In this document: positions 7,121 to 21,857 of the stretch, piece by piece
Layout: every line of letters begins with the position of its first letter
How positions within the stretch are numbered: the first letter of the stretch is position 1
Source of the DNA: a virus
Strand: one strand, 5' to 3'
IMG/VR virus record: IMGVR_UViG_3300046660_000781
Coordinates: 1 to 24,514 of that record
Length of the DNA: 24,514 nt
Notes under the pieces: generated by a model
Told to the model about the DNA's origin: nothing
Database searches by the model: none
Seen by the model: the letters and a program-made list of their open reading frames with translations, nothing else
Position numbers and translations under genes: made by a program

Positions 7121-7573
7121 ATGGTCGACAAGACTTCGCCAGAGTACGCGATGCTGCCTGCTGGCACCGTCGTCAAGTGGGGCGCGCTGAGTGCTGACGT
7201 TTCCACAATGAAAGATTTGGTTAACTGTAAGGCGTTGGGAGCGACAGGGCAGACTGGTGGTTTCGTTGACTGCACCACGCTCATTGATAAAAGCAAACAG
7301 TCGATTTCTGATCTTCCGGAAGGTCCTGAGAAATCACTGGGCTTTATCGATGACCCTGCGAATCAGGATTTTGCGGACTTCCTTAACGCGGCTGAAAATC
7401 GTGAAACAGTGCGATTTTACATTGAGCTGCCTAATGGTCGAACAGCGACAATGATCCTGGCGCTATCGGGCTGGCAAATGAATGAAATCACGGCCCCGGC
7501 CAGTGAGGTTATTCAGATCACCGTACAGAGTAAGCAGAACAATATTGTGTGGGGTACGGCACTGACCAGCTAA
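7121..7573 (+). CDS. Major tail tube protein (gpV-like)
   Basis: This 150-residue protein should polymerise as stacked hexameric rings to form the flexible tail tube. It is beta-rich, with alternating segments such as GTVVKWGALSADV, DCTTLIDKSKQSISDLPEG, TVRFYIELPNGRTATMILAL and VIQITVQSKQNNIVWG. The central DLPEGPEKSLGFIDDPANQDF region is typical of this family. It follows a strong purine-rich ribosome site (AGAGAGAG) and is followed by a terminator hairpin and then the tail chaperone, the normal order in lambda-like tails. A highly expressed structural gene would fit the strong translation signal. Confidence 0.9.
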   Translation: MVDKTSPEYAMLPAGTVVKWGALSADVSTMKDLVNCKALGATGQTGGFVDCTTLIDKSKQSISDLPEGPEKSLGFIDDPANQDFADFLNAAENRETVRFYIELPNGRTATMILALSGWQMNEITAPASEVIQITVQSKQNNIVWGTALTS

Positions 7574-7641: not shown

Positions 7642-8004
7642 ATGTCCACTTACGATTTATCCGCTCTTAAATCAGCGTTGCTGAAATCTAAAACAGCCAT
7701 TATCACCGCCGAAATATTTGGTACCACTGTTTATTTGCGTCGTATGACGGCGGGCCAACTTATCGACCATGAAGAAGCGCTGCGCGATGCTCAGGTTGCT
7801 GATGATGCCCGTAAAGCCTCAGAGTTGAGCGTTCAGCTTATCGTTGACTGCCTTGTTCAGCCGGACGGTAACGATATTCCTGTGGAGGACAAGCCCACTG
7901 CAGCAGAATTGCTTCAGGCACATGACAACGTTGCACTCCTCAATGCCATTGATACCGTTAAAAAACACGCGGTTGGCAAGTTAGAGGATGCTGAAAAAAA
8001 CTAA
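7642..8004 (+). CDS. Tail assembly chaperone, short form (gpG-like)
   Basis: This 120-residue product is the zero-frame form of the tail assembly chaperone, which coats the tape measure and recruits tube subunits but is absent from mature tails. It sits directly between tube and tape measure genes, the invariant site for this pair. The protein is helical and acidic (MTAGQLIDHEEALRDAQVADD, LIVDCLVQ). The final codons GAA AAA AAC TAA contain the heptamer A AAA AAC just before the stop, so a fraction of ribosomes should continue in the -1 frame to give the long form. Ribosome site GGA lies upstream of the ATG. Confidence 0.9.
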   Translation: MSTYDLSALKSALLKSKTAIITAEIFGTTVYLRRMTAGQLIDHEEALRDAQVADDARKASELSVQLIVDCLVQPDGNDIPVEDKPTAAELLQAHDNVALLNAIDTVKKHAVGKLEDAEKN

Positions 8005-8243
8005 GCAGCTCGCCCTGGCTTGAGCTGATCTTCTGGCTGGCTGACCGCTGGGGCGAGCCTGACCCCTCAAAAATTGCTGCGTTGCCGGTAGAAACGCTCT
8101 ACCACTGGCGTGCTTATTTCCTGCGTACAGGTGTCATTAGTCGCCCTGGCGATGAACACACCACATCTTCCGAAGCCCCGCCGCAGACAGTCAAGAACGA
8201 TGTTAATGACCAGTGTGCAGCAGTAATGAGAGCATTAATGTAA
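7642..8243 (+). CDS. Tail assembly chaperone, frameshifted long form (gpGT-like)
   Basis: A -1 slip at 7995-8001 would fuse the 120-residue chaperone to an 80-residue extension read from 8001, ending at TAA 8241-8243 (200 residues in all). The extension (LSSSPWLELIFWLADRWGEP, then LPVETLYHWRAYF) looks like the T domain of lambda-type chaperones, which contacts tape measure and tube. In the -1 frame a TGA at 7992-7994 closes the frame immediately upstream of the slip site, and there is no ATG until six codons before the end, so the segment can only be reached by frameshifting. The stop shares one base with the tape measure ATG (TAATG). Confidence 0.88.
7995..8027 (+). promoter_or_regulatory. 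Programmed -1 frameshift site with downstream hairpin
   Basis: The slippery heptamer A AAA AAC (7995-8001) is correctly phased with the zero frame (codons AAA and AAC). Four bases later CAGCTC (8006-8011) can pair with GAGCTG (8022-8027). The loop GCCCT (8012-8016) could also pair with GGGGC at 8050-8054, giving a possible pseudoknot. Heptamer and stem are read directly; the pseudoknot is inference. Confidence 0.85.
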
Positions 8244-11200
8244 TGGCTGACGTTGCTTCCCTTGCCGTCGGGCTGCATCTGAACGCAGCCAACTTTAAAT
8301 CTCAGCTGATGGGCGCCTATGGTGACGCTGAGAACTCTTCGAAACGCTTTAATCGTAACGCCCAGGAGGATGCCAAAAAGACCGATGAGGCATATTCGCG
8401 GATGGGTAAAACCATCACTGGTGTTGCTGGTCGCCTGGCGGGGTTCGCGGGTGCCGGGTTGTCGCTGGGCGCCATCATTACCACGACACGCGAGTATGGT
8501 CAGGCATTATCCGACCTGTCAGCTATTACCGGCGCGACGGGGACGCAATTAAAGACCCTTGATGAAGCAGCTCAGGAAATGGGTCGTAGTACGGAGTACA
8601 GCGCCACTCAGGCAGTTGAAGCCCTTAAGCTGATGGCGTCGGCTAAACCTGAATTACTCCAGACAGCCGACGGGCTCACCGCTGCAACTAAAAGTGCGCT
8701 CACTCTGGCGCAGGCAGCAGGATCGACCTTGCCGGATGCAACCCGCACGCTGGCGCTTTCCCTTAACCAGTTCGGGGCAGGGGCGCAGGAGGCCGACCGT
8801 TATATCAACGTACTGGCAGCTGGTGCCAAATTCGGGGCGTCTGAAATTGTCGATACCGCTGCTGCCATTAAAAATGGTGGTGTGGCGGCCGCACAGGCGG
8901 GTGTGGGCTTTGAAACACTGAACGCTGCTATTCAGGTACTGGCTGAGCGGGAAATCAAAGGTGGTGAGGCGGGTACAGCGCTGCGCAACGTGCTCCTCGC
9001 TCTGGAAAAGGGGACCGATAAAACACTGAAACCTTCTGTAGTCGGGTTAAGCGGTGCACTGGAAAACCTGTCGAAGAAGAACCTTTCAACCGCTCAGGCC
9101 GTTAAGTTGTTTGGCGTGGAGAACATCAACGCGGCTTCGGTGCTGGTGGATAATCGCAGCAAACTTGATGCTCTTACGCAGTCTCTGACAGGCACGCAGA
9201 CGGCGCATGAGCAGGCTGCTATTCGTGTTAATAACCTGAATGGCGACGTCATGGGACTGACCAGCGCCTTCGAAGGTTTGATTCTGAAGGTCGGGGAAAG
9301 TGGTAATGGGCCGTTGCGGTCGGGTATTCAGTCGATTACAGACGGCATCAATGTCCTCACTAATAATTTCAATGCGGTTGCAAGTGTTGCGCTTTATACG
9401 CTTATACCGGTTCTTTCCACAAAACTCACCGCAGGTTTACGCGAAAACGTCAGCGCCTGGCAGCAGAATCAGGCAGCGGTCAAAGCGACTGCAACGGCTC
9501 AGGCAGACGGTGCCCGCAAAACCCTTGAAGCAACAGCCGCCACGCTCAAACGCAATGATGCTGAATTTGGCTACTACCGCCAGATGCAACAGACCGCAAA
9601 ACAGCACGGACTCAATGTCAGCTATCAGGGGGAGTTCAACCGGCTGATCAGGGAAGAAACTGAGCAAACGAATCTCGCAACCCGCGCCAAAATGCAACTT
9701 GCTGCTGCAAATCGTCAGGTTTCTGTCGCTGCGCGTGCCGCGTCTGTGGCTGTTGGCCTTGCCCGTGGAGCTTTGGCTCTGGTGGGTGGTCCGTTCGGTG
9801 CGGCAATGTTGGCTGGATCTGCGTTGCTCTACTTTCATCAGCAGGCTAAAGATGCCAGACAGTCGGCTATTAACCTGAAAGATGCTGTTATTGAGACAAC
9901 CGCTGCGTTGATGCAGCTATCCGATAAGCAACTGGCCGTTAAGCAGATTGATCTGCAGGACCAGTATCAGAATCAGGTTACCCAGCGTAACCAACTGATT
10001 AAGGAGATTCAGGACTCTAACAGTAGGCTGGACAGCCTCGGTGGATTCGATCCCTTCGGGCAGAAAAAAGGCGTAGAGGATAGTCGAAAGCGTGCTGAAG
10101 CTGATCTTGAGTCTGTGAATAAAGGGCTTGAGACCACGCAGGCCAATCTGGAGAACGTCAGTAAATCTCGTTTTCTTGTGCAGACGGGTATTGCCGACCA
10201 GGCCAATAACTTAGCCAGCGACATCAAGGCCATAACAGAGCAGACCGCCAAAGCGGGTGAAGGTGTAACCACTCCATGGACTGGCGAGGACCCATCATCT
10301 GACAAAAAGGTCAAAAAAACAGTAAACCAGTACGAACAGCTTCGCCGGGAAATTGAAGAGGCTCATGCCTCAAGCCTTGCCAGAATCAATTTGCAGGAAC
10401 AGGAAAGCCAGAAAAAGCTGATTGAAGCAGCGAGAGCAAATGGTGCGAGCGACAAAGACCTGCAACGTTCGTTACTGATGAACGCGGAGAACTACCAGAA
10501 ACAGCGGCTCGAGCTTGCTGAACAGTATTCTCCTGCGCGGGCAGCCATCAATAAAGAGAAGGAAGCCAGCCAGGATCTAAAGTCCCTTCTTGATGCTCGT
10601 TTGCTGACAGAGAAGGAATACATGGCGGCGCGTGTCACGCTGTCGCAGAACACATCCCGGCAAATACTTCAGGCGCAGGCCGATGCAATTGCTTCACCAC
10701 GGCTTGATATGGCTGGTGATGTTGACCCGCTGGTTCAGCAGAGAAACCAGCTAACCCAGCAGCAAAGTCTGCTTCAGGCTTACTATCAAAACGGCGCCGT
10801 AAGTAAACAGCAGTACGAAATGCTGATGCAAAAAAGCAGCAAGGATTCTGCTGATGCTCAATATCAGACGGCACTCGAGCTTTATAAATCCCAGAGTGAC
10901 TTTAACAGCCTGGCGATTGGTATGGTTGAAGCAACCAGAGAGCGGACCACTAACGTTCTGACTGGTCTTTTAACCAGAACCCAGACATTCAAGCAAGGCA
11001 TGATGAATCTGTTTTCTACCCTTACCCAATCTCTGATCCAGAACCTTGTCGATATGGCAGCGCAAGCGCTGATTACAAACACGATTCTGAGCTCAATAAT
11101 GGGTATTGGCTCGAGCATTGTTGGCGGCGTAAGTGGTGCAGCATCAGCAAATGCCGGAACGGCAGTTGCCAACTATGGCAGCAGTTTTCAATTCAACGCC

Positions 11201-11569
11201 AAAGGTGGGGTGTACTCCTCTCCTGATTTAAGTGCTTATAGCGGCGGGATTGTTGATAGTCCTACATTTTTTGCTTTTGCGAAGGGTGCTGGCGTAATGG
11301 GAGAGGCCGGGCCAGAGGCAATTATGCCGTTGAAGCGTGCTGCTGATGGTTCTTTGGGCGTACGAATGTCTGGTGGCGGTACTAGTGCAAATATCGTAAT
11401 TAACTCGGTAGTAAACGTAACTGGTGAAAGTAGTCAGTCGCAGACCAGTGGTAGTAATGATGCAGTTGGTCGTGCTTACCAACAAACCATCAATTCCAGT
11501 ATTAAGGATGGTATTCGGAGGGAGTTGAAACCGGGTGGGATAATCTGGAATGCGCAACATAACCGCTAG
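8243..11569 (+). CDS. Tail tape measure protein (lambda gpH-like)
   Basis: This 1108-residue protein sets tail length and probably enters the cell envelope during DNA ejection. Residues about 80-310 form the conserved tape measure core (EYGQALSDLSAITGATG; DEAAQEMGRSTEYSATQAVEAL). Hydrophobic stretches lie near 62-82 and 497-530. Long Gln/Lys/Glu-rich helical regions follow (about 545-900), and the C-terminus has the lambda gpH-type block GEAGPEAIMPLKRAADGSLG. A GTG start at 8213 is possible, but the ATG at 8243 overlaps the chaperone stop by one base and gives the usual N-terminus (MADVASLAVGLHLN). By the rule of about 0.15 nm per residue the tail would be near 165 nm. Confidence 0.95.
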   Translation: MADVASLAVGLHLNAANFKSQLMGAYGDAENSSKRFNRNAQEDAKKTDEAYSRMGKTITGVAGRLAGFAGAGLSLGAIITTTREYGQALSDLSAITGATGTQLKTLDEAAQEMGRSTEYSATQAVEALKLMASAKPELLQTADGLTAATKSALTLAQAAGSTLPDATRTLALSLNQFGAGAQEADRYINVLAAGAKFGASEIVDTAAAIKNGGVAAAQAGVGFETLNAAIQVLAEREIKGGEAGTALRNVLLALEKGTDKTLKPSVVGLSGALENLSKKNLSTAQAVKLFGVENINAASVLVDNRSKLDALTQSLTGTQTAHEQAAIRVNNLNGDVMGLTSAFEGLILKVGESGNGPLRSGIQSITDGINVLTNNFNAVASVALYTLIPVLSTKLTAGLRENVSAWQQNQAAVKATATAQADGARKTLEATAATLKRNDAEFGYYRQMQQTAKQHGLNVSYQGEFNRLIREETEQTNLATRAKMQLAAANRQVSVAARAASVAVGLARGALALVGGPFGAAMLAGSALLYFHQQAKDARQSAINLKDAVIETTAALMQLSDKQLAVKQIDLQDQYQNQVTQRNQLIKEIQDSNSRLDSLGGFDPFGQKKGVEDSRKRAEADLESVNKGLETTQANLENVSKSRFLVQTGIADQANNLASDIKAITEQTAKAGEGVTTPWTGEDPSSDKKVKKTVNQYEQLRREIEEAHASSLARINLQEQESQKKLIEAARANGASDKDLQRSLLMNAENYQKQRLELAEQYSPARAAINKEKEASQDLKSLLDARLLTEKEYMAARVTLSQNTSRQILQAQADAIASPRLDMAGDVDPLVQQRNQLTQQQSLLQAYYQNGAVSKQQYEMLMQKSSKDSADAQYQTALELYKSQSDFNSLAIGMVEATRERTTNVLTGLLTRTQTFKQGMMNLFSTLTQSLIQNLVDMAAQALITNTILSSIMGIGSSIVGGVSGAASANAGTAVANYGSSFQFNAKGGVYSSPDLSAYSGGIVDSPTFFAFAKGAGVMGEAGPEAIMPLKRAADGSLGVRMSGGGTSANIVINSVVNVTGESSQSQTSGSNDAVGRAYQQTINSSIKDGIRRELKPGGIIWNAQHNR

Positions 11570-20099: not shown

Positions 20100-20128
20100 T
20101 TGATCAGGTTTAATGATAGATATACTGT
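20100..20128 (+). promoter_or_regulatory. Probable umuDC promoter
   Basis: TTGATC (20100-20105) as -35 and TACTGT (20123-20128) as -10 are 17 bases apart; TATACT at 20121-20126 is a better -10 but gives a 15-base spacer. Either way the -10 overlaps the LexA box, as expected for a LexA-repressed promoter. Exact hexamers are inferred. Confidence 0.6.
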
Positions 20129-20142
20129 ATAAATACACAGTT
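20123..20142 (+). promoter_or_regulatory. LexA box (SOS operator) upstream of umuDC
   Basis: CTGTATAAATACACAG (20125-20140) has the full CTGT-N8-ACAG core of the enterobacterial LexA site with AT-rich centre, flanked by TA and TT. It lies 20 bases before the umuD ATG and overlaps the likely -10, so LexA should block transcription until DNA damage. Confidence 0.92.
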
Positions 20143-20160
20143 ATTAATTATGGCTATCAT

Positions 20161-20580
20161 ATGAACCTTATCAAACCTGTCTTACTGCGCGAAGTTATCA
20201 CTATTCCGCTGTTTAGCGACCCGGTAAAATGCGGTTTCCCGTCTCCTGCTCAGGACTATGTAGAAGAGCGCTTAGATATTAGTGAGTTAATCGCACCTCA
20301 TCCGAGCAGCACCTATTTCGTCCGAGCGTCGGGTGACTCGATGATAGACGGCGGGATTAGCGACGGTGATTTGCTGGCGGTGGATTGTTCGCGCACCGCC
20401 AGGCATAACGATGTCGTCATTGCCTCGGTTGATGGTGAATTTACGGTTAAGCGCCTTCAGCTTTACCCGACAGTCCAGCTCAACCCTATGAACACGGCAT
20501 ACGCGCCAATCCTGATAGGCAGTGAGGGCACGCTCAATATTCTGGGCGTGGTCACGTTCGTCATTAAATCGATGGGCTGA
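20161..20580 (+). CDS. umuD: UmuD, LexA-like self-cleaving subunit of DNA polymerase V
   Basis: This 139-residue protein has the exact length of E. coli UmuD. After DNA damage it binds RecA filaments, cuts itself and, as UmuD'2, joins UmuC to form translesion polymerase V. The cleavage site C24-G25 (VKCGFPSPA), nucleophile S60 ([10 protein letters not shown]) and K97 (GEFTVKRLQ) all fall at the E. coli positions. An open frame extends upstream to 20113, but that would put the LexA box inside the coding sequence, so the ATG at 20161 is the start. Two bases separate it from umuC. Expression should be SOS-induced. Confidence 0.96.
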
Positions 20581-20582
20581 CC

Positions 20583-21857
20583 ATGTTTGCCCTGGTGGAT
20601 GTCAATTCGTTCTATGCCAGTTGCGAAACCGTATTCAGGCCGGATTTGCAGGGCAGGCCGGTAGTGGTGCTCTCGAACAATGATGGCTGCGTTATTGCCC
20701 GGAGTGCAGAAGCGAAAGCCATTGGCGTCAAAATGGGTGACCCGTTTTTCAAGCAAAAGGATTTGTTCCGGAGGTTCGGCGTTGTCTGCTTCAGTTCCAA
20801 TTACGAGCTATACGCCGACATGTCTGATCGGGTGATGACCACGCTCGAGGAGATGTCACCGCGCTGTGAAATTTACAGTATCGATGAAGCATTCTGTGAC
20901 CTGACTGGCGTGCGTAATTGTCGCAACCTTGAGGATTTCGGAAGGGAAATCAGAGAAACCATTTTGCTGCGAACGCGTCTCACCGTGGGTGTTGGGGTGG
21001 CACAGACCAAGACTTTAGCCAAGCTCGCTAACCATGCAGCCAAGAAATGGCAGCGGCAGACGGGTGGAGTAGTTGACCTGACGAATTTAGAAAAGCAGCG
21101 CAAGCTGATGGCGTATTTCCCGGTTGATGAAGTCTGGGGCGTGGGGCGGCGGATTTCCAAAAAGCTTGAGGCTATGGGCATTAAAACCGTATTGCAGTTG
21201 GCTGATACCGATATCCGGTTCATCCGTAAACACTTCAACGTAGTGCTCGAGCGCACCGTTCGTGAACTACGCGGCGAACCCTGCCTCGACCTGGAAGAGT
21301 TCGCACCCACCAAACAAGAAATCGTCTGCTCACGTTCATTCGGTGACCGGGTGACTGAATACGAGCAGATGCGACAAGCCATCTGTAGTTATGCGGCGCG
21401 CGCCGGGGAGAAGCTGCGGGGTGAACATCAGTTCTGCCGCTATATCTCCGTATTCATCAAAACATCACCATTCGCGCTGAATGAGCCATATTACGGCAAT
21501 CAGGGTGCCGTGAAGTTAATGACGCCCACGCAGGATACCCGCGACATTATTGCGGCGGCGATGCGCTGTCTGGATAAAATCTGGAAGGATGGATGTCGAT
21601 ACCAGAAAGCTGGGATTATGCTGGGTGACTTCTTCAGCCAGGGTGTGGCGCAGCTGAATCTGTTTGACGACAACGCGCCGCGACAAAACAGTGCAGCACT
21701 AATGGAAGTACTGGACCATCTCAACCACAAGAATGGAAAAGGGGCGCTGTACTTTGCCGGGCAGGGCATCCAGCAGCAATGGCAGATGAAGCGGGAAATG
21801 CTTTCACCACGCTATACAACGCGCTGGGAAGATTTGCCGATAGTCAAAGTGAGATAG
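20583..21857 (+). CDS. umuC: UmuC, catalytic subunit of DNA polymerase V
   Basis: This 424-residue Y-family DNA polymerase (E. coli UmuC has 422) copies past lesions such as abasic sites and UV dimers when complexed with UmuD'2. Catalytic residues D6 (ALVDVN), D101 and E102 (YSIDEAF) are present. The little-finger region is intact, and QLNLF (357-361) is the canonical sliding-clamp binding motif. It is co-transcribed with umuD from the LexA-controlled promoter. The last 14 bases overlap the 3' end of the oppositely oriented SRAP gene. All active-site residues are present, so it should be functional. Confidence 0.96.

Follow-up and report, generated by a model that had tools for sequence, protein, structure and literature searches.

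The analysed stretch of DNA (24,514 nt, called the window here) carries head and tail genes of a long-tailed phage, recognized by Pfam and PHROG matches: terminase, portal, protease and major head protein and, on the tail side, tail tube protein, tail chaperone, tape measure and central fibre. The chaperone gene sits between the tail tube protein and tape measure genes, as in the lambda G/GT type. Its product belongs to the tail assembly chaperone family, with a match to Pfam Phage_TAC_14 (6.4e-31) exceeding the family cut-off and two PHROG matches, both to tail assembly chaperones. Elsewhere in the window (20113-21857, plus strand), a UmuD-like Peptidase_S24 gene and, beginning two bases further on, a gene for a DNA polymerase (phrog_1268) have the look of a umuDC-type pair carried by the phage. 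The features relevant to the chaperone are:

7121-7573 (+): major tail (tube) protein gene; Pfam Phage_TTP_13 (PF16463, 1.2e-71), PHROG major tail protein
7642-8004 (+): short tail assembly chaperone (lambda gpG counterpart), 120 aa; PF16462, phrog_25875, phrog_344
7995-8001 (+): slippery heptamer A AAA AAC, with 0-frame codons AAA (7996-7998) and AAC (7999-8001); sequence, conserved in relatives
8002-8004 (+): 0-frame stop TAA, immediately 3' of the heptamer, TAA or TGA across relatives; sequence, relatives
8001-8243 (+): -1 frame extension (lambda T counterpart), 80 codons and TAA; translation, phrog_25875, pN/pS
8009-8018 (+): putative stimulatory hairpin, 5' arm CUCGCCCUGG; RNAfold, RNAalifold, covariation, energy against synonymous recodings
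8048-8057 (+): putative stimulatory hairpin, 3' arm CUGGGGCGAG; RNAfold, RNAalifold, covariation
8243-11569 (+): tape measure protein gene; PHROG tape measure phrog_339 (5e-167)

The slip site and its conservation

The chaperone 0-frame ends with GCT GAA AAA AAC TAA (7990-8004), which places the heptamer at 7995-8001 and the stop at 8002-8004. Correct phasing of A AAA AAC with the chaperone frame, claimed by a first-pass annotation of this DNA, can thus be read directly from the sequence. The heptamer was also said to lie one codon before the stop; it is indeed near it, but TAA adjoins the heptamer without any codon in between. Among the 19 gene calls of the window, only the chaperone has an in-phase X XXY YYZ heptamer at most 12 codons from its stop.

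The relatives comprised annotated phages, contigs of viral origin, prophages on plasmids and the yield of one genome scan; duplicates (L002, L015) were excluded from the fetched loci, and slip regions of 102 bases each were compared. A AAA AAC with directly adjoining TAA or TGA was present in all 57 distinct regions, drawn from phiKO2, PY54, CharmingMan and Providencia phages with overall protein identity down to 42-46%. The scan gave no site in just three fetched loci: Kpn74, a contig that stops within reach of the gene's end, and L192, from a distant Vibrio phage. L192 was the one record examined among Vibrio phages carrying a distant homologue, and no heptamer in it passed the scan. In Kpn74 (L011), the A run near 1371 is shorter by one base (A6), and the tail genes are fragmented into small calls by indels nearby; both are probably sequencing errors, and this locus was excluded from the counts. 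Among 40 thinned sequences, the identical-codon fraction in same-residue comparisons was 1.0 at the three slip codons, i.e. no synonymous change was present; it was 0.71 in the first 20 extension codons versus 0.46-0.51 in the stretches before and after.

A Shine-Dalgarno-like GAGGA (7984-7988) lies six bases from the heptamer. It is common among relatives, with GGAAAC in its place in the L053 group, and was considered as a candidate second stimulator. In dnaX, the corresponding distance to the heptamer is longer.

Some relatives contain another candidate slip site at the end of the major tail protein gene. In L007 and L008 (P840, PY54), an in-phase C CCA AAG is located one codon 5' of the stop, and the same heptamer was found at this gene's end in L045, L047-L051 and L109-L111. 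It opens an 88-codon -1 frame, Ig-like in appearance (Pfam Ig_3 at 4e-5, below cut-off), which in PY54 underlies ORF13, annotated as 'Hoc-like'. Frameshift-made Ig-like extensions are a known class (PMC5009743); this one is absent from the window's phage.

The -1 frame extension

The coding layout agrees with the first-pass annotation. The -1 frame is closed by TGA at 7992-7994, just upstream of the slip, and past the slip stays open for 80 codons (LSSSPW...MRALM, sense codons 8001-8240) up to TAA at 8241-8243, the last A of which (base 8243) overlaps the tape measure ATG. No ATG, GTG or TTG within the extension yields an ORF of at least 60 aa, i.e. there is no usable start. Codons 20-41 gave pN/pS of 0.28 in the -1 frame versus 1.75 and 1.49 in the other two frames and, judged from this ratio, the open frame is evolving as a protein. 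In addition, phrog_25875 (195 positions) spans both halves of the predicted product, its positions 116-195 matching the extension at 3.2e-31, while Pfam held no family for the extension alone.

Some records annotate a separate small ORF in this stretch (P840 ORF16), as might be expected if translation of the extension started internally or by coupling, yielding a separate protein, or if the extension were what is left, after decay, of a gene that was once fused. Either origin appears extremely improbable, as there is no suitable start codon near the beginning of the extension, and both the protein-level selection on it and the full conservation of the slip codons argue against such a reading.

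The extension had been described as hidden. This holds for most other records checked, which carry the short form only; among the annotated relatives looked at, none other than phiKO2 has the fusion annotated, indicating that routine annotation misses the extension. However, phiKO2 does annotate the equivalent frameshift and phrog_25875 covers both halves, so the extension is a known feature that routine annotation overlooks. In L012 (1014-1571, minus strand) and L011, wrong-strand 'hypothetical protein' calls overlie the chaperone gene and the extension. This chaperone was also found in 184 plasmid records, mostly from Klebsiella. Many of these measure about 50-55 kb, almost all are predicted to be non-mobilizable, and they look like phiKO2-type plasmid prophages.

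RNA folding downstream of the slip site

When 7995-8080 and 8002-8064 were folded with RNAfold, 8009-8018 paired with 8048-8057 (z -2.6 to -2.95), and the RNAalifold consensus over 20 relatives contained the same stem. The resulting 10-pair hairpin, extended in this window by an extra G-C pair (8008:8058), begins after a spacer of seven bases (8002-8008) and so represents a stable, conserved stem at the distance of some 5-9 bases past the heptamer that is looked for in a hairpin stimulator. Its pairing across relatives was 98.5% and dropped to 24-61% on sliding by one to three columns. Eight cells of the hairpin were changed on both sides, and the covariation score was equalled in none of 500 shuffles, the covariation being drawn from few related lineages, chiefly of the Providencia type. 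The covarying pairs were i) 8012:8054, where G-C is replaced by A-U in three Providencia-type sequences, and ii) 8018:8048, where G-C is replaced by C-G or U-A in five sequences. In the -1 frame, each of the four columns falls on a third codon position; substitutions at 8012, 8054 and 8048 are synonymous, and at 8018 the codon also shifts from Trp to Arg. In 9 of 11 sequences, no more than 2.5% of synonymous recodings encoding the same peptide reached a fold energy as low as that of the native sequence, with a weaker signal in P840 and PSTRCR_117lys. One or two hairpin pairs were mismatched in three Providencia-type sequences (L010, L099, L102). Rfam gave no match at gathering scores in the window. 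The conserved hairpin is a putative frameshift stimulator. It is not described in the literature that we searched; since the principal survey, by Xu, Hendrix and Duda (2004), falls outside that literature, we do not claim priority for it.

A different structure had been proposed for this region, namely an H-type pseudoknot consisting of a six-pair stem (8006-8011:8022-8027) and a loop pairing GCCCU:GGGGC (8012-8016:8050-8054). The letters of the window do allow both helices, including the GCCCU:GGGGC complementarity, but this is not the conserved fold. Among the 20 relatives, the first stem was paired in only 71% of cells and its pair 8008:8025 was broken in 13 of them, while the supposed second stem is no separate helix and coincides with the middle of the better supported 10-pair hairpin. 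RNA folding, which had been suggested as a check, likewise returned the hairpin as the minimum-energy fold, as did the consensus. After this test the pseudoknot was rejected, and we consider it very unlikely to be the stimulator.

The main rival to ribosomal slippage is slippage of RNA polymerase on the A run, which comprises seven A in the window (7994-8000) and eight in Providencia-type relatives. One added A would reach the same frame, giving the junction AEKKL instead of AEKNL, and runs of more than seven A have been linked to transcriptional slippage (PMC3711429). However, seven A is at the short end, and slippage by ribosomes accords both with the hairpin under selection, which covaries and starts seven bases downstream, and with the in-phase XXY YYZ pattern with AAC, which never varies. 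As the source of the extension, transcriptional slippage thus seems improbable to a high degree, although it could contribute a minor share besides ribosomal slippage.

Frameshifting model and known systems

At the level of sequence, comparison with relatives establishes the signal, an open frame, selection on the extension as a protein, and conservation of the hairpin. From these, 7995-8001 is almost certainly a programmed -1 ribosomal frameshift site in a tail assembly chaperone gene of the lambda G/GT type; the conserved slip site and the selection in the -1 frame support the original suggestion that frameshifting adds an 80-residue C-terminal part, at the conserved position ahead of the tape measure gene. 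According to the proposed model, most ribosomes would read A AAA AAC and halt at the adjacent TAA, producing the 120-aa chaperone. A minority, held at the hairpin (8009-8018:8048-8057), would slip back one base by tandem slippage of tRNA-Lys on AAA and tRNA-Asn on AAC, bypass the stop and produce a 200-aa fusion with the junction AEKN-LSSS (predicted junction peptide AEKNLSSSPWLELIFW...). In the lambda model reviewed in PMC5009743, the tape measure is bound by gpG and the tail tube protein by the T part of gpGT. By analogy, the short form would here coat the tape measure protein, with the T-like extension recruiting the tail tube protein, the two products probably having the same roles as in lambda.

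We infer that slippage at A AAA AAC takes place, presumably at a rate of a few per cent, as judged from other phages: 6% and 7% were found experimentally in two HK97-like chaperone genes (PMC3711429). In E. coli, A_AAA_AAC is less slippery than A_AAA_AAG (PMC5009743), which counts against the model but suits a low-level fusion product, a few per cent of slippage being enough for tail chaperones. It is possible, though rather doubtful, that phiKO2/PY54-type chaperones possess a distinct co-evolving signal composed of the weak A AAA AAC, the adjacent stop and the covarying hairpin at +7, in which the stop may set the product ratio by competing with slippage.

The picture of tail building is left unchanged. 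With the present locus, the conserved frameshift of tail chaperones gains another well-supported case and a concrete covarying putative stimulatory hairpin that is open to mutation; moreover, the second chaperone is absent from the annotation of many sequenced relatives.

The system is of a known type, since phiKO2 annotates the frameshift, phrog_25875 spans both halves and AAAAAAC is in print elsewhere. The closest counterpart is gp13/gp14 of phiKO2 (GenBank AY374448, NC_005857; host source Klebsiella oxytoca), with the same gene position and homologous products. There, too, A AAA AAC directly precedes the 0-frame stop and an 80-codon extension follows. The record gives gp14 as a CDS in two parts, labelled 'putative programmed frameshift from gene 13'. 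The phiKO2 hairpin retains the core of 10 pairs and lacks the extra G-C pair at 8008:8058. Lambda G and GT, likened here by description, are likewise two tail chaperones made from one start by -1 slippage just 5' of the tape measure gene. Lambda slips on G GGA AAG, whereas the window has A AAA AAC adjoining the stop in a gene of the Phage_TAC_14 family. The heptamer therefore does differ from that of lambda, but calling it a variant solution was an overstatement, as AAAAAAC has been reported for tail chaperones of phiCbK (PMC3556154), Loki and IME_AB3 (PMC5313236), HCTV-2 (PMC5009743) and, tentatively, Dragolir (PMC6003738). In phiCbK, Loki, IME_AB3 and HCTV-2, which have different hosts and are likened by slip site only, the same heptamer occupies the same functional place, and in Loki it also immediately adjoins the stop. 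The window site is thus an addition to a well-known trick of long-tailed phages, in which a second, longer chaperone is made by slipping back one base.
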